Source: Spirochaetales bacterium (GTDB lineage: Bacteria; Spirochaetota; Spirochaetia; SZUA-6; RPPD01). Taken from it: a stretch of 64,000 bases of DNA. This document shows positions 3,969 to 15,550 of the stretch, one piece after another. Position numbers and translations under genes: made by a program. Where the stretch lies: positions 1 through 64,000 of the forward strand of contig JAFGJO010000061.1 in the NCBI GenBank assembly GCA_016929065.1, given 5' to 3'. The notes beneath the pieces were generated by a model. It ran no database searches and was not told the origin of the DNA. It saw nothing but the letters and a program-made list of their open reading frames with translations. Position 1 is the first letter of the stretch. Every line of letters starts with the position of its first letter.

Positions 3969-5066
3969 ATGAATACATCAATCGAACAACGGGCGTCTTT
4001 TCATTTTATCCGCTATGCAAACTGCTGGGAGGATGCTGATATCCTCCTTGAGGCATTGCAGGGATTGGTCGGCGGAAATTATCTTTCGATTGCCTCAGCA
4101 GGCGACAACTCTTTAAGTCTCCTTACCCATCATCCAGCCGCAGTCGTTGCCGTTGACATGAATCCTGCACAAATCGCTCTTTTGGAATTAAAAAAATTGC
4201 TGTTTAAAACGTGCGACTATAATGAGGTGGTGTCCTTTTTGGGAGTACACCCCTCGCAGAACAGGACCCGGCTCTATAACAAACTACGCATTCTCCTGGG
4301 GCAAAAATCACGGGAGTTTTTCGACAGCAATAAAAAACTGATTGATACAGGACTTGTCTATACAGGAAAGTTTGAACGCTATTTTACGTATTTCAGAAAA
4401 TTCATCCTTCCCCTGATTCTCTCCAAATCAAAACGGAACAGCCTGATCAAGCCGAGGACAAAAAATGAACGGGAACTGTTTTATGAAAAAAATATCAATA
4501 CGTTTATTTACAACCGTATCTGCAGATTTTTCTTTTCCCGGTACATGATGGGAAAGCTGGGACGCGACATGGAGTTTTACCGCTTTGTCGAAGGGGGAGC
4601 GGCAAAACAAATTATGAAACGGGTCAAAATAGGCCTGACAGAGACCTCTACATCCGATAATCCGTATCTTGAATTTATTTTATTCGGAAAATATGTCAAA
4701 ACGTTTCCGCACTATCTGCGGCTGCAATCATTCGATCCAATAAAAAAAAATATCGACAAACTGGTTGTCTTTCATGGCTCGACCTCCGATTTTATTAAAA
4801 AAAATCCCAAAACCAATTTCAATGGATTTAATTTGTCTGATATCTTTGAATACATGAGTGAGGATTTGTTCAGGCAGGAAATAGAGACTCTGCTTTGCAG
4901 TGCTGTTTCAAAAGCTCGCCTGGTATACTGGAACATGCTTGTCCCCCGGCAGGCGCACCGGCTGTTTCCAAAAAAAATAAAACCGCTTTCGCAGCTGGGC
5001 AGGGAATTGTTTTTACGGGATAAAGCATTCTTCTACCGTGATGTTATTGTCGAGGAAACACTATGA
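3969..5066 (+). CDS. DUF3419/BtaA-like aminocarboxypropyl transferase
   Basis: A 365-residue protein of the DUF3419 family. The family includes BtaA, which moves the 3-amino-3-carboxypropyl group of S-adenosylmethionine onto diacylglycerol in betaine-lipid synthesis. Seen here: an N-terminal R-Y-A-N-C-W-E-D-A-D block, a SAM-binding glycine loop (S-I-A-S-A-G-D-N-S-L) and the acidic V-A-V-D-M-N-P-A-Q strand end at residues 40-65. It is the first gene of a seven-gene operon and overlaps the next gene by four bases. A TATACT box at 3949-3954 is a possible -10, with a poor -35. No BtaB-type N-methyltransferase adjoins it, so the product need not be a trimethylated betaine lipid. Confidence 0.8.
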   Translation: MNTSIEQRASFHFIRYANCWEDADILLEALQGLVGGNYLSIASAGDNSLSLLTHHPAAVVAVDMNPAQIALLELKKLLFKTCDYNEVVSFLGVHPSQNRTRLYNKLRILLGQKSREFFDSNKKLIDTGLVYTGKFERYFTYFRKFILPLILSKSKRNSLIKPRTKNERELFYEKNINTFIYNRICRFFFSRYMMGKLGRDMEFYRFVEGGAAKQIMKRVKIGLTETSTSDNPYLEFILFGKYVKTFPHYLRLQSFDPIKKNIDKLVVFHGSTSDFIKKNPKTNFNGFNLSDIFEYMSEDLFRQEIETLLCSAVSKARLVYWNMLVPRQAHRLFPKKIKPLSQLGRELFLRDKAFFYRDVIVEETL

Positions 5067-6436
5067 TCCATGAATACATCTGGATGGGCATTTATGCAGT
5101 AATTTACCTTGTTATTTTTTTGATCGCGGGAATAATCCGCAAGAAGTTTCCGGAAAAGGAAGAACTCTCGCGAAAAACCTCTCATTTCTTTGGCGGGATC
5201 GCCGCCCTGTTTATCCCGCTGGTTATCCACAGTGTGCTGCATGTGGCAATTTTATCCGCCGGGTTTTTGGTTTTTTTGTTTGTCATGAGAAGACTGGGGC
5301 ACATGAAATCCATATTCGAGGTCGGCCGAAAATCAATCGGAGTGTTTCTTTTTCCGATTACAATTTTCATTATTTATTTTTTGGCAAAGGATATTTACCC
5401 CTATTATTTTGTCGCCATTCTTGTGCTGACGTTCTCGGATTCAGCGGCCGCGCTCATCGGGACAAAATACGGGTCAGTGAAATTTGAAATAGAGGATAAT
5501 ACCAAGAGCCTGGAAGGCTCGGTGATGTTCGCGGTGATCACATTTTTATGTGTGCAGATCCCGTTGCTGCTTATGACCAGTCTTGCAAAAGAACAGGTTA
5601 TTGTCATCTCCCTGATCATTGCCGTCGTCGTTACCCTGTTTGAATCACTCTCCCCCGGCGGAAGCGATAATTTTTTCGTGCCGCTCGGTACGTATTATAT
5701 TACCGAGCGCATGTCGCACTATGCCCTGAACTACAATCTTGAGACCTGTTATCAGCTGTTGATCTCGATGGCGATCGTGCTTGCTGTTTTCACTTTTATC
5801 AAAGCGGTAAAATGGAGCGGCAAAATCGTTATCATGCTGGTCAATTTTACCTGTCTGTCGCTTATCCCCTACACCGCGCATTTTCTATGGACCGGGTGGT
5901 TTGTGACACTTGTCATGGTGGAACTGTTCCTGGCATTGGCGATTGCGATGTACACTGCGAAAGTTGAAAACACCTTTCCGAATTATCAGGTAAAGCCTGC
6001 GCTGTATATCGGGCTTGTTCCCGTAATTCTGATTTTTATCGCTGCGGGGTTTCAAAACTATGACCAGCTGTTTCTTCCCTATATCGCGGCATTTGTCGCG
6101 CAGGGAACACTGCTTGCAACATTCTTTTTTACACAAATTCAAAAGCAAAAGAAGAAACGAAGCATGTTTTTTGAAATCTGCTGTGCCTTTATCGCCAGTA
6201 TTCTGACATCCGGCCTCATCGCCACAGTGCCGGTGTTTTTGTTTTCAACAGGAAATTATTTCATCATTTTGGGCATGGTAAGCCTTGCAAGTTTTCTGGC
6301 AACGGTTATTTATATTCTGTTGGCCAGGCTTTTTCATGATAAAAAAATCATGTCATCAGCAGGCCGGCGGCAGAAACTGAGGGTCATTCCCACAGTGATT
6401 TGTGTTCTGGCAGTATATTTCATTCAGTTTGTCTAA
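5063..6436 (+). CDS. CTP-dependent lipid-alcohol kinase (dolichol/phytol kinase family)
   Basis: A 457-residue integral membrane protein. Its N-terminal half carries the motifs of the DGK1/SEC59/VTE5 family, enzymes that phosphorylate dolichol, phytol or diacylglycerol with CTP: R-K-T-S-H-F-F-G-G (about residue 37), D-S-A-A-A-L-I-G-T-K-Y-G (about 128), K-S-L-E-G-S (about 149) and E-S-L-S-P-G-G-S-D-N (about 194). The C-terminal half, from about 230, holds seven or so further membrane segments without family motifs. This makes it roughly twice the usual length. Its ATG overlaps the stop of the DUF3419 gene. The substrate is not evident; a lipid alcohol used by the neighbouring UbiA or BtaA-like enzyme is a sensible guess. 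Confidence 0.75.
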   Translation: MIHEYIWMGIYAVIYLVIFLIAGIIRKKFPEKEELSRKTSHFFGGIAALFIPLVIHSVLHVAILSAGFLVFLFVMRRLGHMKSIFEVGRKSIGVFLFPITIFIIYFLAKDIYPYYFVAILVLTFSDSAAALIGTKYGSVKFEIEDNTKSLEGSVMFAVITFLCVQIPLLLMTSLAKEQVIVISLIIAVVVTLFESLSPGGSDNFFVPLGTYYITERMSHYALNYNLETCYQLLISMAIVLAVFTFIKAVKWSGKIVIMLVNFTCLSLIPYTAHFLWTGWFVTLVMVELFLALAIAMYTAKVENTFPNYQVKPALYIGLVPVILIFIAAGFQNYDQLFLPYIAAFVAQGTLLATFFFTQIQKQKKKRSMFFEICCAFIASILTSGLIATVPVFLFSTGNYFIILGMVSLASFLATVIYILLARLFHDKKIMSSAGRRQKLRVIPTVICVLAVYFIQFV

Positions 6437-6446
6437 AGGAGTATAT

Positions 6447-8546
6447 ATGGAGAAATTCGTCCGGTTTGTCATGAGATTCCGTATCCTCATCGGTGTTTTG
6501 CTGATTGTATTCGCGGCTGTCGCGGCAATCCCCTTAAAGGATTATCATATTGATAATTCACTTGAAATCTGGTTTTTCGATGACGACCCCGCATTAAAAA
6601 ACTACCGGTATTTCCAGGAAACCTATGGGAATGACGAACTGGTCACGGTCGCCCTGAAAAGCAGCAGCAGTTTTGTAACAAAAGAGAATACAAAAAAGCT
6701 GGAGGCATTGATATCAACAATAAAACGTTTGTCGTCCGTCGAGACTGTTTACAGCGTCTTCAATACGCCATCAAAAGCAGAGTATCTTTCGAAAGACAGC
6801 ACAGCAACGCTGTTCCATGTCGTTTTAAAGCAGGTGAAAAACCCTGATGCGGTTCGCGGCCTTATTCTTGCAGACATCAAACAGATTATTGAACAAGAAG
6901 CACCGGAAGCAGGATGGCAGTATCATCTTGCCGGTCTTGGGGTCATCTATAATGCGCTCAATGAAATCGCCCTGAGTGATTCCACATTACTGATTATGAT
7001 CAGCTATGTGCTGATTTTTATCTTTCTTGCATTCGCATTGCGTCGTCCATTGTTCATTGTCATCGGCATTTTTGTTGTCTGCTTGACCCTGGTCGTCGTG
7101 CTCGGGCTGTTTTTCTTTTTTGGAAAATCAATAAACACGGTCACCATGATACTCCCCACCTTGATCATGATTTTCAGTATTGCCGACATCATCCACATCA
7201 CAAACACCTACCGCCGGCATTATAATGACAATCCAAAACAGGAGAATGAAGAGCTGGTCGTCGGGAGCATCAAGTCGATTATAAAGCCCTGTTTTTTTAC
7301 GAGCCTCACCACGGCCGTGGGTTTTGCAGCACTGACCGTTTCCCGGGTGCAGGTAATCCGCGACCTCGGGATATTCGGGGCAATCGGAATTATGTGTGCA
7401 TTTGTCTTCTCGATACTGTTTACCATTATTTTCTTTTCGTTCATCAAAAAGAATGCTGCACTCAAACAAAAACCAAATGAAACAAACAGCCGTCTGGTTC
7501 AGCTGTTTTATCCCAAAAAAGCAGCAGTGCTGATTATCCCGGCCCTGTTTTTTATTGCCTGCATCATCGGCATGTTTTTTCTTGAAGTGGATACCTATAC
7601 CATCCAGTTTTTCAAGGATGATCATCCTGTAAGAAAGGGGTCGGATTTTATTGAAAATAATTTTGGAGCGTACACACCCCTTGAGTTTCTGGTGAAACCG
7701 GAAAGTGGAACCTTTGAATCGCCGGAAGCCTGGAAACAGCTGGCCGAAGTGGAAAAAAAGATCGTAGAAATTGACGGGGTAACAATATATCCGGCGCTTT
7801 CTGCACTTATCGCGAACATGGCGCAGCAGGAAGACCGTGAATCAATAAAACAGATTCTGGACTATATCCCGCAAAACCTGAAAAACAATTTCATGAAAAA
7901 AGATTATTCAGAAATACGGATTTCGACGCGAATCAAAATGGACAGCGCGCAGGGTTTTAAAAAGGTGATTCAAAAGGTGATGGACAATATTCCCGGCAGC
8001 GGCAAACAATGGTCTTTAAAGGTAGCTCCTTCGGGATATCTTCCCCTGTACGTCAAAATGATCGACTACATTACCGATACTCAGGTATTCAGCTTTATCA
8101 TTGCCTTTTTTCTTGTTTTCGGCATCACCTTTCTGTTGGCCGGTTCGATCAAGCTTGGACTGTTTGCGGTCATTGCGAACCTGTTCCCCCTGGTGGGGAC
8201 ACTCGGCATTATGGGGCTTTTGGGGATACGGCTCGATATTGCAACCGTCACCATTTCCGCAATCGCCATGGGAATTGTGGTTGATGACACAATTCATTTT
8301 TTGTCGCAGTACAAAAAAACAGGTGAGGTGAACAGAACACTCGACAAGGTATTTCGGCCGATTGTCTCGACCTCGCTCATCCTGATTTTCGGATTTGTTG
8401 TTCTGCTGTTTGCACAGGTAACCTCGGTAATCTATTTCGGGCTTCTGTCGATGCTTGTTATTATTCTTGCGCTTGTCGGTGATATTATTATTCTGCCGGC
8501 CTTGCTGAAACTGTTTCCCGGAAAAATACAGGGAGTGAAAAAATGA
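6447..8546 (+). CDS. MMPL/RND-type lipid exporter
   Basis: A 699-residue RND-superfamily protein with the duplicated MMPL layout: one helix, a large extracytoplasmic domain, five helices, then the same again. The first membrane block (about 180-335) carries F-S-I-A-D-I-I-H-I; the second (about 560-690) carries A-M-G-I-V-V-D-D-T-I-H-F, both with the acidic residue used for proton coupling. Relatives such as HpnN and MmpL move lipids across the envelope. I chose the ATG at 6447, preceded by AAAGGAG, over an in-frame ATG at 6402 that would overlap the upstream gene. It overlaps the next gene by four bases and is probably the exporter for the product of this operon. Confidence 0.8.
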   Translation: MEKFVRFVMRFRILIGVLLIVFAAVAAIPLKDYHIDNSLEIWFFDDDPALKNYRYFQETYGNDELVTVALKSSSSFVTKENTKKLEALISTIKRLSSVETVYSVFNTPSKAEYLSKDSTATLFHVVLKQVKNPDAVRGLILADIKQIIEQEAPEAGWQYHLAGLGVIYNALNEIALSDSTLLIMISYVLIFIFLAFALRRPLFIVIGIFVVCLTLVVVLGLFFFFGKSINTVTMILPTLIMIFSIADIIHITNTYRRHYNDNPKQENEELVVGSIKSIIKPCFFTSLTTAVGFAALTVSRVQVIRDLGIFGAIGIMCAFVFSILFTIIFFSFIKKNAALKQKPNETNSRLVQLFYPKKAAVLIIPALFFIACIIGMFFLEVDTYTIQFFKDDHPVRKGSDFIENNFGAYTPLEFLVKPESGTFESPEAWKQLAEVEKKIVEIDGVTIYPALSALIANMAQQEDRESIKQILDYIPQNLKNNFMKKDYSEIRISTRIKMDSAQGFKKVIQKVMDNIPGSGKQWSLKVAPSGYLPLYVKMIDYITDTQVFSFIIAFFLVFGITFLLAGSIKLGLFAVIANLFPLVGTLGIMGLLGIRLDIATVTISAIAMGIVVDDTIHFLSQYKKTGEVNRTLDKVFRPIVSTSLILIFGFVVLLFAQVTSVIYFGLLSMLVIILALVGDIIILPALLKLFPGKIQGVKK

Positions 8547-9430
8547 AACGATGGCTGAAATTCATCATCACCCGGTTTCCACCGCTGGCATATATTCCGC
8601 TTATCGCCGCATTTACTATGGCATGTTTCATGCTGGCCGGAAAAGCCTTTGCCATGCCGGAATATTTGTCATACCGTTTTATCGCGACGGCATTTATTAC
8701 ACTGCTTTTTTTCTTTCATCTTCGGGTATTTGATGAAATAAAAGATTATAATACCGATATTCACGTGCATCCCGAACGGCCGCTGGCAAGCGGTGCGATC
8801 CGGGTAAAGGAAGCCAAGGCGGTTGCGTTTTGTGTTGTCGCAGCAGAATTACTGCTGGGAGTGTTTCTCGGCTGGGCGGGATTTGTCGGTTTGGTTTTTG
8901 CCGTGGGATATTCGGTGTTAATGTACAGGGAGTTTTTTATTAAACAATGGCTTGTAAAACGCATGGTCATGTATGCGTTGACGCATACGCCTGTTTCCGC
9001 CCTGCTTACCCTGTTTTTGTTTTCCGCGTTTGCAAATCTGTTTTTTTGGCAGGCTCCCCTGTTTTATGTCTTTTTTGCCTTTGCAAACTGGGCGATATCC
9101 AATGTGTTTGAGTTTTCAAGAAAAACGTTTTCCGCAGATCAGGAGACCGGGGCTGAATCGTATTCAAAAAAATGGGGCATTCCCCGTGCCTCTTTGTTTG
9201 TCTCCTTTATGCTTGTTGTTTCATCCACTTTTATGCTGACCGGGATTTATATTCTTGAACAGAACATGTTGTGGTTCGTATTGTTCGGCAGCTTGTGCAT
9301 GTTGTCTCTGGGCTTTACCGTATTGTTTATGGTAAAAAAAACCGGTCTGTCTGCCAGACTGTTTCAAGGGTTTCACTCTGCAAGCATTCTGCTCTTCTAT
9401 AGTATTATCATTACCGGTGTACTTGTATGA
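8543..9430 (+). CDS. UbiA-family prenyltransferase
   Basis: A 295-residue membrane protein with about eight helices and both aspartate-rich motifs of the UbiA superfamily: R-V-F-D-E-I-K-D-Y-N-T-D followed by H-P-E-R-P-L near residue 60, and S-A-D-Q-E-T-G-A-E-S-Y near 195. These motifs bind the diphosphate of a prenyl donor through magnesium. UbiA relatives prenylate aromatic rings, chlorophyll precursors, haem or glycerol phosphates. The acceptor is not predictable from the sequence. The surrounding lipid genes argue for a lipid or quinone-like acceptor. It overlaps both its neighbours by four bases. Confidence 0.8.
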   Translation: MKRWLKFIITRFPPLAYIPLIAAFTMACFMLAGKAFAMPEYLSYRFIATAFITLLFFFHLRVFDEIKDYNTDIHVHPERPLASGAIRVKEAKAVAFCVVAAELLLGVFLGWAGFVGLVFAVGYSVLMYREFFIKQWLVKRMVMYALTHTPVSALLTLFLFSAFANLFFWQAPLFYVFFAFANWAISNVFEFSRKTFSADQETGAESYSKKWGIPRASLFVSFMLVVSSTFMLTGIYILEQNMLWFVLFGSLCMLSLGFTVLFMVKKTGLSARLFQGFHSASILLFYSIIITGVLV

Positions 9431-12111
9431 AACCGGTTCAATGGTACCATGCGATTTCTTTCCGCCGGCAAATACTACCGCATATCGGCGGCAAAGCATT
9501 CGGGCTGGTCAGCTTGGGGAAAGCCGGACTGCCGGTTCCCGAGTGGTTTGTCGTGACCTCGGACTTTCTTGCATCACTGCTTCAGCAGGATCCCAAAATA
9601 ATCCGCCTGCTTTCATCGCTTGACGGGTCGGTGAAACAAAGCGCCGAACTGAAAAGCCTGATAAAAAAATACAAATTCAATGAAAGCACAATTGAACTGC
9701 TTGGGAAGAACTGGAAAAGGCTGTCAAAAAACGGGGCAATCCCGCTCGCTGTGCGGTCCTCGGTGGCGGATGAAGATTCATCAGAGCATTCATTTGCCGG
9801 GCAGATGGATTCGTATCTGAATGTGAAAACTTTTCGGGATTTTCTGAAAGCCCTGCGCCATTGCTGGGCCAGCTTTTTTAATGAAAGGGCAATCGCCTAC
9901 CGCCTTGAAAACAATCTGGAGATGCAAGGGGTGCAGTGTGCAGTGGTTGTCCAGCGGATGATCAAGGCAGATGTCTCCGGGGTGCTGTTCACCGCGAATG
10001 TGCTGACCGGAGCAAGGGATGAAACCGTGATCAACACGGCATGGGGCCTTGGTGAGGGGATTGTCTCCGGCAGGCTTGATACCGACAGTTTTATTCTGGA
10101 CAGCAAGGGTGTCTGTATTGAAAAAAAAATTGTAAAAAAGAAAGAAGCGGTCTGTTATAAAGATGACGGGGCAACCCTTTACGCTGCTGTTGAAAAAGAA
10201 AAACAGACAATGGCGACGCTGAATACTGCCTCGCTTATGCTGCTTGCCCTGTTCACAAAAAAAATCCGAAAATATTTCCAAAAGCCTGTGGATGTCGAAT
10301 TCGCTTTTTTGGGAAAACGGCTTTATCTGCTGCAGGCACGGCCGGTTACAACACTTAAAGGGCAACATAACAATTTCATTGTATGGGATAATTCAAACAT
10401 TGTGGAAAGCTACAGCGGGGTGACAACACCGCTGACCTTCTCATTTATCAAGATGGTATATGAATCGGTCTACATCCAGTTCTGCGAAGTATTGGGAATC
10501 GACAAACTCACCATAAAGAAAAACAGGAATGTTTTCCCCAATATGCTCGGGCTCATTCATGGACGGGTATATTATAATCTGCTGAACTGGTACCGGCTCG
10601 TTAGCCTGCTGCCGGGATTTTCCTATAACCGTAGGTTTATGGAAGAGATGATGGGACTGCAGAAAGTGCGCAGGCATTTTAAAAGGGAAACAGAAAAATC
10701 GGTGATGCGGAAATATTTTTATCATCTGCCGCGCCTGTTTCTTGTTGCTTTCAAAATGGTTTTGCTGCAATTTGCATTGCCGAAAAGGATAAAAAGATTT
10801 TTTCTGAAATTTTACCGGACCTACAATGCATATTCTGCTTTTGATTTTTCACGGATGAATGAATATGAGCTCAAGCTCCTGTCACAGGATTTGCGTGAAA
10901 AAATACTCGGGCATTGGAAAGAACCAATTTTAAATGATTTAAAAACAATGATTTTTTATGGAATTTTGAAAAGCATGTCAACAGCAGTGCCTTCACTGCA
11001 GACCTTGTATAATGACCTGCTGGTCGGCGAAGGAAATATAAAAAGCAAAAAGGTAATCACTGAATTGTTTACACTTGCGCGTGATATTTCTGCCGACCCC
11101 GCGGTAAAAAAAATGCTTTCGTCCGGCAGTGCGGAGAAAGCATATAAATTACTTACAACAAGAGCAGAATGTTCGGTATATTACGGGCGGTTTAAAAAAT
11201 ACATAAAAGACTATGGTGTCCGGTCGGTTGAAGAAATGAAGCTTGAATCGATCCCGGTAAAAAACAATCCTGTTTTTGCGATGGCGACTATCCAAAATTA
11301 TCTTCGTACAGATACAGACGCGCCCGATGCGCAAAACATGCATCAGAAAGAACTGGATATGCGCAGGAATGCAGAGCATGAAGTAAAAAAAGCCTTCAAA
11401 GGAAAGCGGTTTCTGCTTTTGTTTTCAAAATACAAATTATACAATTGGGTGCTGAGGCATGCGCGGTTGGGAATTCGTGACCGTGAAAATCAGCGGTTCT
11501 GCAGATCGGAAATATACAGTGTCGTCCGGGATATTTTTATGTCAATCGGGATGCGCTGGGAAAAAGCCGGTATAATAGAAAAACAAAGGGATATTTTTTA
11601 TCTTTCATGGGACGAAATCTGGGCCATGGTGGATGGCGTGGCAGTGAGTTCAGAATTGAAGGCTGTTATTGCTCTACGGAAACGGGAATACAAGCGATAT
11701 GAAAAAATGGATCTGCCGGATTATCTGGAGACAGAGGGTGTGGTGTATTCCATGGAGAATCTTGAACGCAACGCGGATGACGATATTCCCGCTGCAAAAG
11801 CGCTCACCGGCCTGGGATGTTCTTCGGGGAATGCGACCGGTATTGTACGGGTGGTAAAAAAACCGGATGCCCGTCTCAAACTAGACGGGGAAATAATGGT
11901 CGCAAAACAGACCGATCCGGGCTGGGTGATTTTATTTCCTGCCATCTCGGGACTTGTTGTGGAAAAGGGAAGTATGCTGTCGCATTCAGCAATCGTGGCC
12001 CGTGAGATGGGCATTCCCGCGGTAGTGGGTGTGCGCAATGCATGTAGGTTGTTGAAGGATGGGGACAAGGTGCGTATCGACGGCAAGAAGGGAACAGTGG
12101 AGCTGCTATGA
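9427..12111 (+). CDS. PEP-synthase-like dikinase/phosphotransferase
   Basis: An 894-residue protein with a pyruvate-phosphate-dikinase-type ATP-grasp domain at about 1-320 (H-I-G-G-K-A-F-G-L near the start; A-V-R-S-S-V-A-D-E-D near 110). A long middle region follows. The C-terminal domain is the swivelling phosphohistidine domain (about 790-894), with G-S-M-L-S-H-S-A-I-V-A-R-E-M-G-I-P-A holding the catalytic histidine. The layout, with the His domain at the very end and no PEP/pyruvate barrel, is that of rifampicin phosphotransferase and its relatives rather than true PEP synthase (PpsA). Such enzymes move the beta-phosphate of ATP to a small molecule. The middle region, which should bind the acceptor, is unlike any I know in detail. 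It probably phosphorylates an intermediate of this operon. Confidence 0.75.
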   Translation: MKPVQWYHAISFRRQILPHIGGKAFGLVSLGKAGLPVPEWFVVTSDFLASLLQQDPKIIRLLSSLDGSVKQSAELKSLIKKYKFNESTIELLGKNWKRLSKNGAIPLAVRSSVADEDSSEHSFAGQMDSYLNVKTFRDFLKALRHCWASFFNERAIAYRLENNLEMQGVQCAVVVQRMIKADVSGVLFTANVLTGARDETVINTAWGLGEGIVSGRLDTDSFILDSKGVCIEKKIVKKKEAVCYKDDGATLYAAVEKEKQTMATLNTASLMLLALFTKKIRKYFQKPVDVEFAFLGKRLYLLQARPVTTLKGQHNNFIVWDNSNIVESYSGVTTPLTFSFIKMVYESVYIQFCEVLGIDKLTIKKNRNVFPNMLGLIHGRVYYNLLNWYRLVSLLPGFSYNRRFMEEMMGLQKVRRHFKRETEKSVMRKYFYHLPRLFLVAFKMVLLQFALPKRIKRFFLKFYRTYNAYSAFDFSRMNEYELKLLSQDLREKILGHWKEPILNDLKTMIFYGILKSMSTAVPSLQTLYNDLLVGEGNIKSKKVITELFTLARDISADPAVKKMLSSGSAEKAYKLLTTRAECSVYYGRFKKYIKDYGVRSVEEMKLESIPVKNNPVFAMATIQNYLRTDTDAPDAQNMHQKELDMRRNAEHEVKKAFKGKRFLLLFSKYKLYNWVLRHARLGIRDRENQRFCRSEIYSVVRDIFMSIGMRWEKAGIIEKQRDIFYLSWDEIWAMVDGVAVSSELKAVIALRKREYKRYEKMDLPDYLETEGVVYSMENLERNADDDIPAAKALTGLGCSSGNATGIVRVVKKPDARLKLDGEIMVAKQTDPGWVILFPAISGLVVEKGSMLSHSAIVAREMGIPAVVGVRNACRLLKDGDKVRIDGKKGTVELL

Positions 12112-13205
12112 TTGTTGAAGAGTTTGTTGTCAATGACAGAAAATGCGCAGCGTTTGTGGATTTTGGCTTTGAAATATATAAAAATGACACCCGGTGGATT
12201 CCGCCGTTTAGAAAATCAATATATGAACTGCTTGATGTGAAAAATCCCGTGTATCATAACGGCCGGTTTAAAAACTTTTTAGTCATTTCAGATAATGCTG
12301 TTATCGCGCGGTGCACAGCCTTTTTCAATCAGCTGGCATTTCATAATGACAAACAGACAGGATTTATAGGATTGTTTGAAGCTGTTCATGACCTGGAGGC
12401 AGCAAGCATACTCCTCGATGCTGCAATTGAATACCTTCGGGAGCAGGGGGCGGCATACGTTTGGGGGCCGGTGAATTTTTCAACCTGGGAAAATTACCGG
12501 TTTTTGACAGGGGAGGCAAAACATGCTCCATTTTACGGAGAACCCTATAATCCGCCATATTACCCGGAGATGTTTGCTGCAAACGGTTTCAAAAAAATAA
12601 AAACCTACTATTCACATCTGATTACCGACAATCAACAGGTTCTTCACAGTGAACAGATTCACAGGGAACGTTTTGACAAAAACAACTATACCATTCGGCC
12701 GATACAGCTCGGCAGGTTTGAGCATGAGCTTCATATACTGTATGGCATATCCGCGAGTGCATTCAGATTCAATTTCGGGTACACCGAAAAATCATTTGCA
12801 GGATTTCGGGCCCAGTATATAAAGCTGAGACCGTTTATCGAAAAGGAAAATATTCTGATCGCAGAAGACGCACACGGCACACCGGCTGGATATGCTTTCA
12901 CGTTTCGGGATAATGCAGATGCGATACGAAGAATGAACGGTTCACTCGATATTTTCTCAAAAATCAAATTCATCGTCACACCGAAATCCCCTGACACGCT
13001 TATATTCAAAACCATTGCGGTGGCACCCGGATTGCGCAAGGTCCGGGTCGGGGCCGCATTGGTCTATGCGGTGCATGAGTATGCGGTGAGAAACGGGTTT
13101 GCGCGGGTGATTCACGCATTGATGAGCGAAGACAATCTGTCCCGGTCATTTTCCGGACTTCCTGAAATATATAACGAGTACGGGTTGTATGGCAAAGAAA
13201 TCTGA
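12108..13205 (+). CDS. GNAT-superfamily acyltransferase-like protein
   Basis: A 365-residue soluble protein of a large GNAT-related family. The N-terminal part has W-I-P-P-F-R-K-S-I and N-P-V-Y-H-N-G. The middle has G-F-I-G-L-F-E-A, then W-G-P-V-N-F-S-T-W-E-N and Y-N-P-P-Y-Y-P-E-M-F, which mark the family. The C-terminal half repeats a GNAT-like fold with K-T-I-A-V-A-P-G-L-R-K-V-R-V-G-A-A-L, an acyl-CoA-binding-loop-like segment. It may N-acylate an amino lipid such as the product of the BtaA-like enzyme; this is inference. It overlaps the upstream gene by four bases and the acyl-AMP ligase downstream by 17. Confidence 0.65.
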   Translation: MIVEEFVVNDRKCAAFVDFGFEIYKNDTRWIPPFRKSIYELLDVKNPVYHNGRFKNFLVISDNAVIARCTAFFNQLAFHNDKQTGFIGLFEAVHDLEAASILLDAAIEYLREQGAAYVWGPVNFSTWENYRFLTGEAKHAPFYGEPYNPPYYPEMFAANGFKKIKTYYSHLITDNQQVLHSEQIHRERFDKNNYTIRPIQLGRFEHELHILYGISASAFRFNFGYTEKSFAGFRAQYIKLRPFIEKENILIAEDAHGTPAGYAFTFRDNADAIRRMNGSLDIFSKIKFIVTPKSPDTLIFKTIAVAPGLRKVRVGAALVYAVHEYAVRNGFARVIHALMSEDNLSRSFSGLPEIYNEYGLYGKEI

Positions 13206-14787
13206 TTTCAGTTTTATCGCCTCCCTGGCAACCGTCGCACGCTCTACTCCTGATAAAACAGCCCTCTTTGAACCGGCGGCAAGCAGGCGGAAGGTGCATC
13301 ACCGGCAATTTACTTTCAGGCAGCTTGAAGACGATTCAACAGCAATTGCTGCGGCGCTTTGGCAAAAAGGGATAAAAAAAGGCGACCATGTTTTTTTTCT
13401 TGTTCCGCCGGGGTATTCATTGTTTGTACTTGTCACAGCATGTCTCAAGCTGGGAGCAGTGAGTGTTTTCGCTGACCCGGCCATGGGAATAAAAAACATT
13501 CTTCATTGTATGGAGCTTGCCAAACCAAAGCTTTTTGTCAGCATCGGCATTTCCCATCTTTTCAGAATCATGCATCGCGTCTTCCGGAAAATACCGCTTC
13601 AAATGAGTATTGGGTTCTCGCTTGTTCCTGCAATGAATTATAAAAAAATCCTGAATCAGTTTCAGCAAGCGGTTTTTCATCCCCGCCATTACAATGAAAA
13701 AGACCCGGTAATGATCACCTTTACCTCCGGCAGTACCGGTGTTCCCAAAGGTGCGCTTCGGACATATGAATTTATTATGGAGCAAAACCGGGTGATCAGC
13801 GATACGTTGAATTATGCCCAGGATGAAATTGAGCTGTCCAATCTTCCATTGTTTATCCTGAACAATATTGCGAACAATATAGCAAGCGTCATTCCCGCTG
13901 TACGGAGCTTGTCTTCGCTTGATGCGAAACTTTTATTTTGCCAGATAGAGCGCACCGCGGTGACGCATATTACCGCATCACCAGCGTTGTTCAGGAAACT
14001 TTCAGCGTACTGCCTGAGTGAACAAAAAAGCCTGCCCCGCATTACAAAAATATTTACCGGTGGCGGGCCAGTTGATGTTCCCCTGCTGAAACAGATGAAA
14101 AAATGTTTTCCACATGCAAAAATAACAGTGGTATATGGATCGACTGAGGCAGAACCAATTTCCCATATAGAAGCCGACAGGGCAATTGACGCAGCTCTAA
14201 AAAACAACAGGGGATTTTGTGTGGGCAAACCGATCCGGCAGGTGAAGGTGAAAATACTCCCCCTTGGAAATGATTTTTTACACAATAAAAAAATACCCGT
14301 ACTGCCGGCGCTTGAAACCGGTGAAATCATTGTCACCGGAAATCATGTCAACAAGGCCTATTATAAAAACAAGAAAGCAGAAGCCGCATGCAAGATTACC
14401 GATGTTGCCGGAGAAATCTGGCACCGGACCGGCGATACCGGTTTTTTTGATGCTTCCGGCAGACTGTGGCTGACCGGCCGTGTGCAGGATGCTATTTACC
14501 GAAAAAACGAAATATTCCATCCCTTTGAAATAGAACAAAAGGTGCAGGAACTTGATTTTATTGAACGCGGTGCAGCAGTGGGCATGCCCGATGATTTCAT
14601 GACAAACCGGCTGCGGCTGGTTGTTGAATTAAAAAAACAAGTACCATTGAAGAAGGAATCATTGCAGACAAAAATAAGCGATTTTTTAAAAATGTACCCG
14701 GTTGATGAAATCCTGTTTGTAAAAAAAATACCCCTCGACAAGCGGCACAACACAAAAATACTGTATCACCGCCTGCGGGAGATGTAA
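13189..14787 (+). CDS. Acyl-AMP ligase of the fatty-acid/OleC-like group
   Basis: A 532-residue adenylate-forming enzyme. The P-loop T-S-G-S-T-G-V-P-K-G lies near residue 180, Y-G-S-T-E-A-E-P-I-S near 318, the H-R-T-G-D-T-G core near 408 and a hinge L-T-G-R-V-Q-D-A near 425. The short distance after the P-loop, the N-L-P-L-F-I-L run, A-S-P-A-L-F and the T-E-A-E-P-I-S motif resemble the OleC-type clade (beta-lactone or acyl-AMP forming) more than classic acyl-CoA synthetases. No OleA, OleB or OleD is present, so olefin chemistry is not supported. The final loop contains K-K-I-P-L-D-K-R-H-N-T-K, with a lysine where the catalytic one sits. It probably activates a fatty acid for the GNAT-like neighbour. 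Confidence 0.75.
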   Translation: MAKKSDFSFIASLATVARSTPDKTALFEPAASRRKVHHRQFTFRQLEDDSTAIAAALWQKGIKKGDHVFFLVPPGYSLFVLVTACLKLGAVSVFADPAMGIKNILHCMELAKPKLFVSIGISHLFRIMHRVFRKIPLQMSIGFSLVPAMNYKKILNQFQQAVFHPRHYNEKDPVMITFTSGSTGVPKGALRTYEFIMEQNRVISDTLNYAQDEIELSNLPLFILNNIANNIASVIPAVRSLSSLDAKLLFCQIERTAVTHITASPALFRKLSAYCLSEQKSLPRITKIFTGGGPVDVPLLKQMKKCFPHAKITVVYGSTEAEPISHIEADRAIDAALKNNRGFCVGKPIRQVKVKILPLGNDFLHNKKIPVLPALETGEIIVTGNHVNKAYYKNKKAEAACKITDVAGEIWHRTGDTGFFDASGRLWLTGRVQDAIYRKNEIFHPFEIEQKVQELDFIERGAAVGMPDDFMTNRLRLVVELKKQVPLKKESLQTKISDFLKMYPVDEILFVKKIPLDKRHNTKILYHRLREM

Positions 14788-14830: not shown

Positions 14831-15550
14831 ATGGAAAGCATGTTTGCCTTTGAAGGAGCCCGGTTCCAGTTTTATTCAATCTCTCATATTGTCCCCCTGA
14901 TAATTATTGCTGCGGCAGCGGCTGCGCTGTACTTTTTTCGAAGGTTCCTGCAGCAGTCTGCGGTATCGAAAAGAATCATTGGAATCATCATCCCCTTTCT
15001 TGTGCTGACAGCCTTTGCTCTGCAATTTATATGGATTGTCAGCAGGGGATATTTCAACATCCGCTATTCCCTGCCGCTGCATTTATGCGACATCACCTTC
15101 ATGCTTGTTTTTTTTCTGTGTTTGTTTCCGAACAAATATCTGGCCGAGATCATGTATTTTATCGGGATCGGTGGGGCACTGCAGGCCCTGCTTACCCCCG
15201 CACTTGCGTATGATTTTCCGCATATCAATTATCTGTTTTTCTTTGCTGAACATGGACTGGTTATTGTCTCTGCGCTTTATTTTGTCTTTGTCAAAAAATA
15301 TCACATCACATTGAAGTCGTTGTTCAGGGCGTTTCTGTTTTTTAATGTAACAGGAGTAATTGTGCTGGGAGTGAATCTGATTCTGGGCAGCAATTATATG
15401 TTTATTATGAAAAAACCGGCCTTTCCCTCGCTGTTCGATCTGCTTGGGCCCTGGCCGGTGTATTTGGTCATTGCTGAAATGATAGCGGCCGCCGTGTTTG
15501 GCCTGCTGTATCTGTTGTTTTTTATTGCACAGAGAAAAAACGGGAATTAG
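14831..15550 (+). CDS. YwaF/TIGR02206-family integral membrane protein
   Basis: A 239-residue protein with about seven membrane helices. The segments Y-S-L-P-L-H-L-C-D, L-T-P-A-L, F-F-A-E-H-G-L-V-I, N-Y-M-F-I-M-K-K-P and L-G-P-W-P-V-Y are characteristic of the TIGR02206 (YwaF) family, whose function is unknown. It starts 43 bases after the lipid operon on the same strand, so it may be read with it. It converges on the pectate lyase gene, and the two coding ends overlap by four bases. Confidence 0.75.
   Translation: MESMFAFEGARFQFYSISHIVPLIIIAAAAAALYFFRRFLQQSAVSKRIIGIIIPFLVLTAFALQFIWIVSRGYFNIRYSLPLHLCDITFMLVFFLCLFPNKYLAEIMYFIGIGGALQALLTPALAYDFPHINYLFFFAEHGLVIVSALYFVFVKKYHITLKSLFRAFLFFNVTGVIVLGVNLILGSNYMFIMKKPAFPSLFDLLGPWPVYLVIAEMIAAAVFGLLYLLFFIAQRKNGN

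Follow-up and report, generated by a model that had tools for sequence, protein, structure and literature searches.

Six of seven closely packed genes in a spirochaete genome belong to a gene cluster that recurs across distant bacterial phyla, and these six almost certainly act in one shared pathway. A product bearing an aminocarboxypropyl group derived from S-adenosylmethionine (SAM) is rather probable, and the fuller scheme, which treats the seven genes as a local variant of a conserved but patchily spread cluster making an undescribed aminocarboxypropyl (homoserine-ether) lipid, is a serious possibility that we rate somewhat below an even chance.

Organization of the cluster in a spirochaete genome

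Seven forward-strand open reading frames (ORFs) fill positions 3969–14787 of the window, i.e., the whole 64,000-nucleotide stretch analyzed, which comes from contig 15 of a 3.49-Mb draft assembly that is 95.8% complete (Table 1). In order, the junctions between them measure −4, +10, −4, −4, −4, and −17 bases, in exact agreement with the gene order and spacing of the original prediction. The MMPL transporter gene starts at an ATG with AAAGGAG immediately 5′ of it, and a GTG at position 6402 is a possible alternative. Downstream of the ligase gene, a TMEM164/TP0381-type gene may lie on the same transcript as the cluster, and no relative of it was found in the 80 related loci described below (the best 80 of at least 523 relatives). 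A promoter scan gave matches that were not in excess of shuffled sequence, and terminator-like matches, which did outnumber those in shuffles, were left uninterpreted because they are scattered inside genes on both strands.

Table 1 Genes of the cluster and its downstream neighbor in the window
Feature	Position	Strand	Supporting evidence
DUF3419/BtaA-like SAM 3-amino-3-carboxypropyl transferase (core)	3969..5066	+	PF11899 E 1e-63; WEDAD, SAGDN, NLSDIFEYM motifs kept in clade
COG0170-type (phytol/dolichol kinase-like) membrane kinase (core), 457 aa, extra C-terminal membrane half	5063..6436	+	RKxxH, DxxAAxxG, KSxEGS motifs
MMPL/HAE3-type RND transporter (local accessory)	6447..8546	+	PF03176, TIGR00921
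UbiA-family membrane prenyltransferase-like protein (core)	8543..9430	+	PF01040; first motif DEhKDxxxD
Rph/PigC-architecture dikinase (core): ATP-grasp, own middle domain, swivelling His domain	9427..12111	+	PF01326 + PF00391
YghO-type tandem-GNAT N-acyltransferase (core)	12108..13205	+	PF00583 weak; tandem-GNAT fold
OleC/FadD-like acyl-AMP ligase (core)	13189..14787	+	PF00501 E 1e-50; PRK09274
TMEM164-related membrane acyltransferase (local accessory), 43 bases downstream of ligase	14831..15550	+	PF14808 E 1e-50; TIGR02206 above cut-off

A six-gene core conserved across bacterial phyla

The host's own phylum has few close relatives of the DUF3419 protein, which were detected in 3 of 393 sampled genomes besides the host (E 2e-50 or better). 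A profile built from these four DUF3419 proteins and scanned against one genome per species recovered at least 523 confirmed BtaA-like relatives, and the best 80 of these were taken as the set of related loci, with up to 10 kb of flank per side. Iterative HMMs for each protein of the window, run on every ORF of 84 loci, detected the dikinase and the kinase in 70 loci each, UbiA and the ligase in 66 each, and GNAT in 61. The MMPL transporter, counted as part of the set in the original prediction, was detected in 3 of the 84 loci only and is a local extra, not a core component. When the BtaA-like gene was well covered on both sides (≥7.9 kb each, 31 loci), all six core families were present at 23 loci, five at 7, and four at 1. 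Overlap between adjacent same-strand genes was common (206 of 311 pairs, 90 of them by exactly 4 bases), these counts being approximate because start codons were chosen by script. Meanwhile, ten control stretches (~187 kb in total, including four that surround distant DUF3419 genes) contained no kinase, UbiA, ligase, or HMG-CoA reductase (HMGR) homologue of the cluster families. Taken together, this supports, for the six core genes, the suggestion made from the window alone of one shared pathway, and the lack of co-conservation that would have refuted it was looked for and not found.

The loci, as the best 80 of at least 523 relatives, span 27 phyla, with at least two core genes in 25 of these, where phylum is the NCBI lineage in the locus title and many loci are metagenome bins whose labels may be wrong. 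The commonest gene order was HMGR-UbiA-dikinase-BtaA-kinase-GNAT-ligase, the HMGR homologue being a further member described below, and the rotation GNAT-ligase-HMGR-UbiA-dikinase-BtaA-kinase was also found; the stable units were the pairs UbiA-dikinase, BtaA-kinase, and GNAT-ligase, the last being paired in 40 loci. Two loci (L014 and L016) held the BtaA-ligase pair alone, and four clusters (L027, L028, L030, and L031) had no recognizable GNAT, showing that components may be lost or exchanged. Since some clusters lack GNAT or the HMGR homologue, these two may be dispensable or replaced by unrelated enzymes.

On the BtaA tree, phylum labels change 40 times against a minimum possible of 25, a pattern compatible with inter-phylum transfer though no proof of it. 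Roseinatronobacter sp. S2 carries one copy of the cluster on a plasmid, and the search of viral contigs returned no relative. Within the order of Methylomonas, a cluster-type BtaA was found in 1 of 201 genomes, i.e., the source genome only. Cultured strains carrying the cluster include Desulfobulbus rhabdoformis DSM 8777, Methylomonas sp. SURF-1, Lentisphaerae bacterium WC36, and Roseinatronobacter sp. S2, so that the pathway can be tested now.

Several loci also showed unusual local features. Nine near-identical clusters (L032, L041, L042, L046, L052, L056, L066, L071, and L091) form one clade in bins labeled as six phyla, reflecting either recent transfer in a shared habitat or mislabeled bins. 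Two Omnitrophota clusters (L028:12468-16793 and L097:3940-8223) have a very large BcrAD/BadFG + DUF2229 activase-like gene inserted within them. PAP2-type phosphatase/transferase genes, possibly head-group or tailoring enzymes, lie near the cluster at L045:17635-18303 and L099:6182-6874, one of them adjoining a cytochrome P450 gene. At L016:2507-11520, in a genome from the same class as the window, short repeated proteins with a EEDYRELTLEEQYLVNGG leader look like a secreted peptide family; next to them lie a secretion-like operon and a gene for a peptidase-type ABC transporter.

A divergent HMG-CoA-reductase-like enzyme as an additional member

Clustering of the remaining ORFs yielded one further recurrent family, an HMGR homologue (PF00368, E 1e-113 and 1e-120) found in 43 of the 80 loci (the best 80 of at least 523 relatives), and by HMM in 44 of the 84. 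Among well-covered loci, it was present in 21 of 31 and absent from 10, and the window's genome contains no HMGR. In an alignment with the human and archaeal enzymes, the positions of E559, K691, D767, and H866 (human numbering) were kept in all 38 cluster members, while the K735 position was M, V, I, L, or A and the S684 position E or D in all 38. In published structural work on the human enzyme, K735 forms a salt bridge with the carboxylate of HMG, and S684 is part of the HMG-binding loop. The one member scanned did not reach the NCBIfam cut-off set for the NADPH enzyme.

In each of 12 hosts tested, the cluster gene was the sole HMGR; HMG-CoA synthase was detected in one of these, as a weak match, and the MEP-pathway enzyme GcpE in 11. 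Conversely, the genome of locus L055, whose cluster has no HMGR, encodes two unlinked HMGRs and no GcpE. Because the catalytic residues are kept, the HMG lysine is lost, and the hosts are mostly MEP users without HMG-CoA synthase, the cluster enzyme very probably reduces an acyl thioester other than HMG-CoA, and a role in isoprenoid synthesis is disfavored on the same grounds.

Features of the core enzymes

The WED and SxGDN regions of the BtaA-like protein recur in the DUF3419 protein of locus L017, which has an adjoining methyltransferase gene in the BtaA-BtaB arrangement. The NLSDIFEYM motif is confined to the BtaA-like clade and missing from the L017 protein, and identity between the clade and more distant DUF3419 proteins is only 25–33%, and the clade may use a different acceptor. 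No significant match was obtained when solved structures were searched by sequence. Family homology (PF11899) supports the group transfer of the original prediction, with a lipid hydroxyl as a putative acceptor. The prediction had also pointed to a missing BtaB, and this holds genome-wide: no BtaB orthologue was found in the window's genome, the L017 methyltransferase returning a single weak, partial match (E 8e-4, 100 residues). At two further loci (L047:7472-9432 and L072:3494-5498), a cluster-type BtaA-like gene is followed by a squalene/phytoene-synthase homologue without other core genes, perhaps a second pathway attaching an aminocarboxypropyl group to an isoprenoid.

The membrane kinase had no significant Pfam match and no match among curated models, yet carries the RKxxH, DxxAAxxG, and KSxEGS motifs, which we take to be those of phytol/dolichol kinases (COG0170). 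Its predicted structure (pLDDT 92.5) had as best fold match a CDP-DAG synthase, a statistically weak one. Across the 393 phylum genomes, the kinase profile exceeded 370 bits only in the host and in one other genome (G052), both with the BtaA-like gene directly upstream; elsewhere, it reached at most 108 bits, mostly over the first 220 positions only. This N-terminal stretch of 220 residues has homologues in single-domain proteins whose spirochaete genes adjoin DUF92 genes. Since DUF92 includes the plant phytyl-phosphate kinase VTE6, this adjacency suggests that the kinase may act in isoprenol phosphorylation. Homology and fold are the support for reading the lipid-alcohol kinase of the original prediction as a putative prenol-type enzyme. 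In three spirochaete loci (L109:1501-2952, L110:1396-3044, and L112:659-2238), the single-domain relative lies directly upstream of the DUF92 gene, an arrangement resembling the plant VTE5-VTE6 phytol-salvage pair.

For UbiA, the nearest solved structure was a DGGGP synthase (E 1.4e-5); the first Asp-rich motif, DEhKDxxxD, is kept and the second altered to ExxRK..E. The dikinase, in which the catalytic His motif SHSAIVARE is invariant among cluster members, matches PF01326 and PF00391 only, without the PEP-binding barrel PF02896 that is seen in a PEP synthase-type protein of locus L019. Having the ATP-grasp and swivelling His domains without this barrel, the dikinase is of Rph/PigC and not of PEP synthase architecture.

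The GNAT family is homologous to Escherichia coli YghO over 318 columns, and the bacterial ceramide synthase bCerS presumably belongs with YghO. The predicted structure of the cluster GNAT has the tandem-GNAT fold (pLDDT 88.7, Foldseek E 1e-12), with no significant match in a search of solved structures by sequence. PF13444, a domain common to known aminolipid N-acyltransferases (PMC11631085), is absent. In the ligase, the C-terminal lysine motif DxRHxxK is conserved. Overall, homology and fold are consistent with the predicted N-acylation by ligase and GNAT, the substrates being putative.

A candidate two-tailed lipid and alternative products

In the scheme that family membership suggests for the chemistry of each step, the BtaA-like enzyme would transfer the 3-amino-3-carboxypropyl group from SAM onto the hydroxyl of a lipid alcohol in the membrane, which is probably an isoprenoid. 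The ligase would activate a fatty acid, with which the YghO-type GNAT would acylate the free amine, and the result would be an N-acyl-homoserine ether with two tails, much like a ceramide. The HMGR homologue, where present, would reduce a non-HMG acyl thioester to an alcohol, either to supply the acceptor alcohol or by acting on the activated carboxylate of the lipid itself. Phosphorylation of alcohols would fall to the COG0170-type kinase and the dikinase, and UbiA would join the activated group, probably a prenyl. In the window's host, MMPL would export the product, which may also be modified by the TMEM164-like acyltransferase. Hints of an isoprenoid come from UbiA, from the kinase relatives beside DUF92, and from the L047 and L072 genes beside squalene/phytoene-synthase homologues. 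More tentatively still, the cluster could define a new class of two-tailed membrane lipids spread over ~25 phyla, in which an isoprenoid or fatty alcohol is ether-linked to N-acyl-homoserine; such lipids would be ceramide-like yet built from SAM and not serine, the usual reductase being an HMGR turned to another acyl thioester.

Among the alternatives, the DUF3419 protein may use SAM otherwise, with an amine or a small molecule as acceptor, and UbiA, kinase, and dikinase may instead make a prenylated phospholipid or glycolipid, the amine coming from elsewhere. The clade's own NLSDIFEYM signature would fit this, as would the fact that no characterized enzyme of the BtaA-like clade was found; however, the SAM-region and WED motifs are common to the L017 protein, and a GNAT requires an amine, which the BtaA reaction provides. 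We consider this reading unlikely, if the strongest of the contenders. Slightly less probable is that the product is no membrane lipid at all, i.e., a small diffusible or exported specialized metabolite (signal or antibiotic) containing an aminocarboxypropyl or N-acyl amino acid moiety. Such a product would be consistent with the patchy distribution, the plasmid-borne copy, the MMPL exporter at some loci, and the dikinase relatives PigC, RedH, and Rph, which act in or on antibiotics, but it accords poorly with several lipid-type membrane enzymes, a 27-phylum spread (among the best 80 of at least 523 relatives), and neighborhoods without recurring assembly-line, regulator, or resistance genes. 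That the genes simply make betaine lipids (DGTS), with the methyltransferase encoded elsewhere and the neighbors unrelated, as the BtaA family membership of the DUF3419 protein might suggest, is very improbable given the weak, partial methyltransferase match in the genome and the conservation of the neighbors across phyla. Finally, an accidental neighborhood of unrelated lipid genes, however much the local MMPL and TMEM164 extras and the permuted gene order between lineages may recall one, is effectively ruled out for the six core genes by their co-localization with overlapping frames in distant phyla and by the empty control stretches.

Relation to known lipid pathways

No description of this gene set was found in the open-access literature, within which the original claim of an undescribed pathway stands; an earlier description outside it is unlikely, though hardly far-fetched. 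A conserved lipid-type pathway in ~25 phyla without a known product would amount to a whole bacterial lipid class that has been missed. The homoserine-ether scheme gives lipidomics a defined group to seek and provides a function for orphan genes of the DUF3419, YghO, and HMG-CoA-reductase-like types across many genomes; it may also include the first enzyme of the HMG-CoA reductase fold with another substrate.

Each of five known pathways (to betaine lipids, ceramides, aminolipids, olefins, and mevalonate) has defining features that the cluster lacks. As in betaine-lipid synthesis (BtaA-BtaB, DGTS), a DUF3419 SAM-dependent aminocarboxypropyl transferase would start the pathway, but the resemblance to BtaA is at the family level only, there is no BtaB, and the DUF3419 proteins of the cluster form their own clade and are linked instead to ligase, GNAT, UbiA, dikinase, and kinase. 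Bacterial ceramide synthesis, which involves Spt, bCerS, CerR, a specialized ACP, and an acyl-CoA synthetase (PMC11087976, PMC9386255), similarly has a soluble acyltransferase and an acyl-activating ligase N-acylate a long-chain amine; in the cluster scheme, the amine would derive from SAM, and neither serine palmitoyltransferase nor CerR was found in the cluster or among the recurring neighbors of the 80 loci (the best 80 of at least 523). Aminolipid enzymes of the OlsB/OlsF type (PMC11631085) likewise include GNAT-family N-acylation of an amino acid, yet carry PF13444, unlike the cluster GNAT. The ligase is on the same acyl-AMP ligase branch as the beta-lactone synthetase OleC but falls under the OleC cut-offs, and OleA, OleB, and OleD are absent from the cluster and the recurring neighbors of these 80 of at least 523 loci. 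The dikinase shares its three-part architecture and catalytic His with the rifamycin phosphotransferase Rph and the prodigiosin ligases PigC/RedH, although it scores far under their equivalog cut-offs and has conserved middle-domain motifs of its own. Lastly, the HMGR homologue has the fold and the four catalytic residues of class I HMG-CoA reductase and differs from it in both HMG-binding positions, which are replaced throughout the cluster members.
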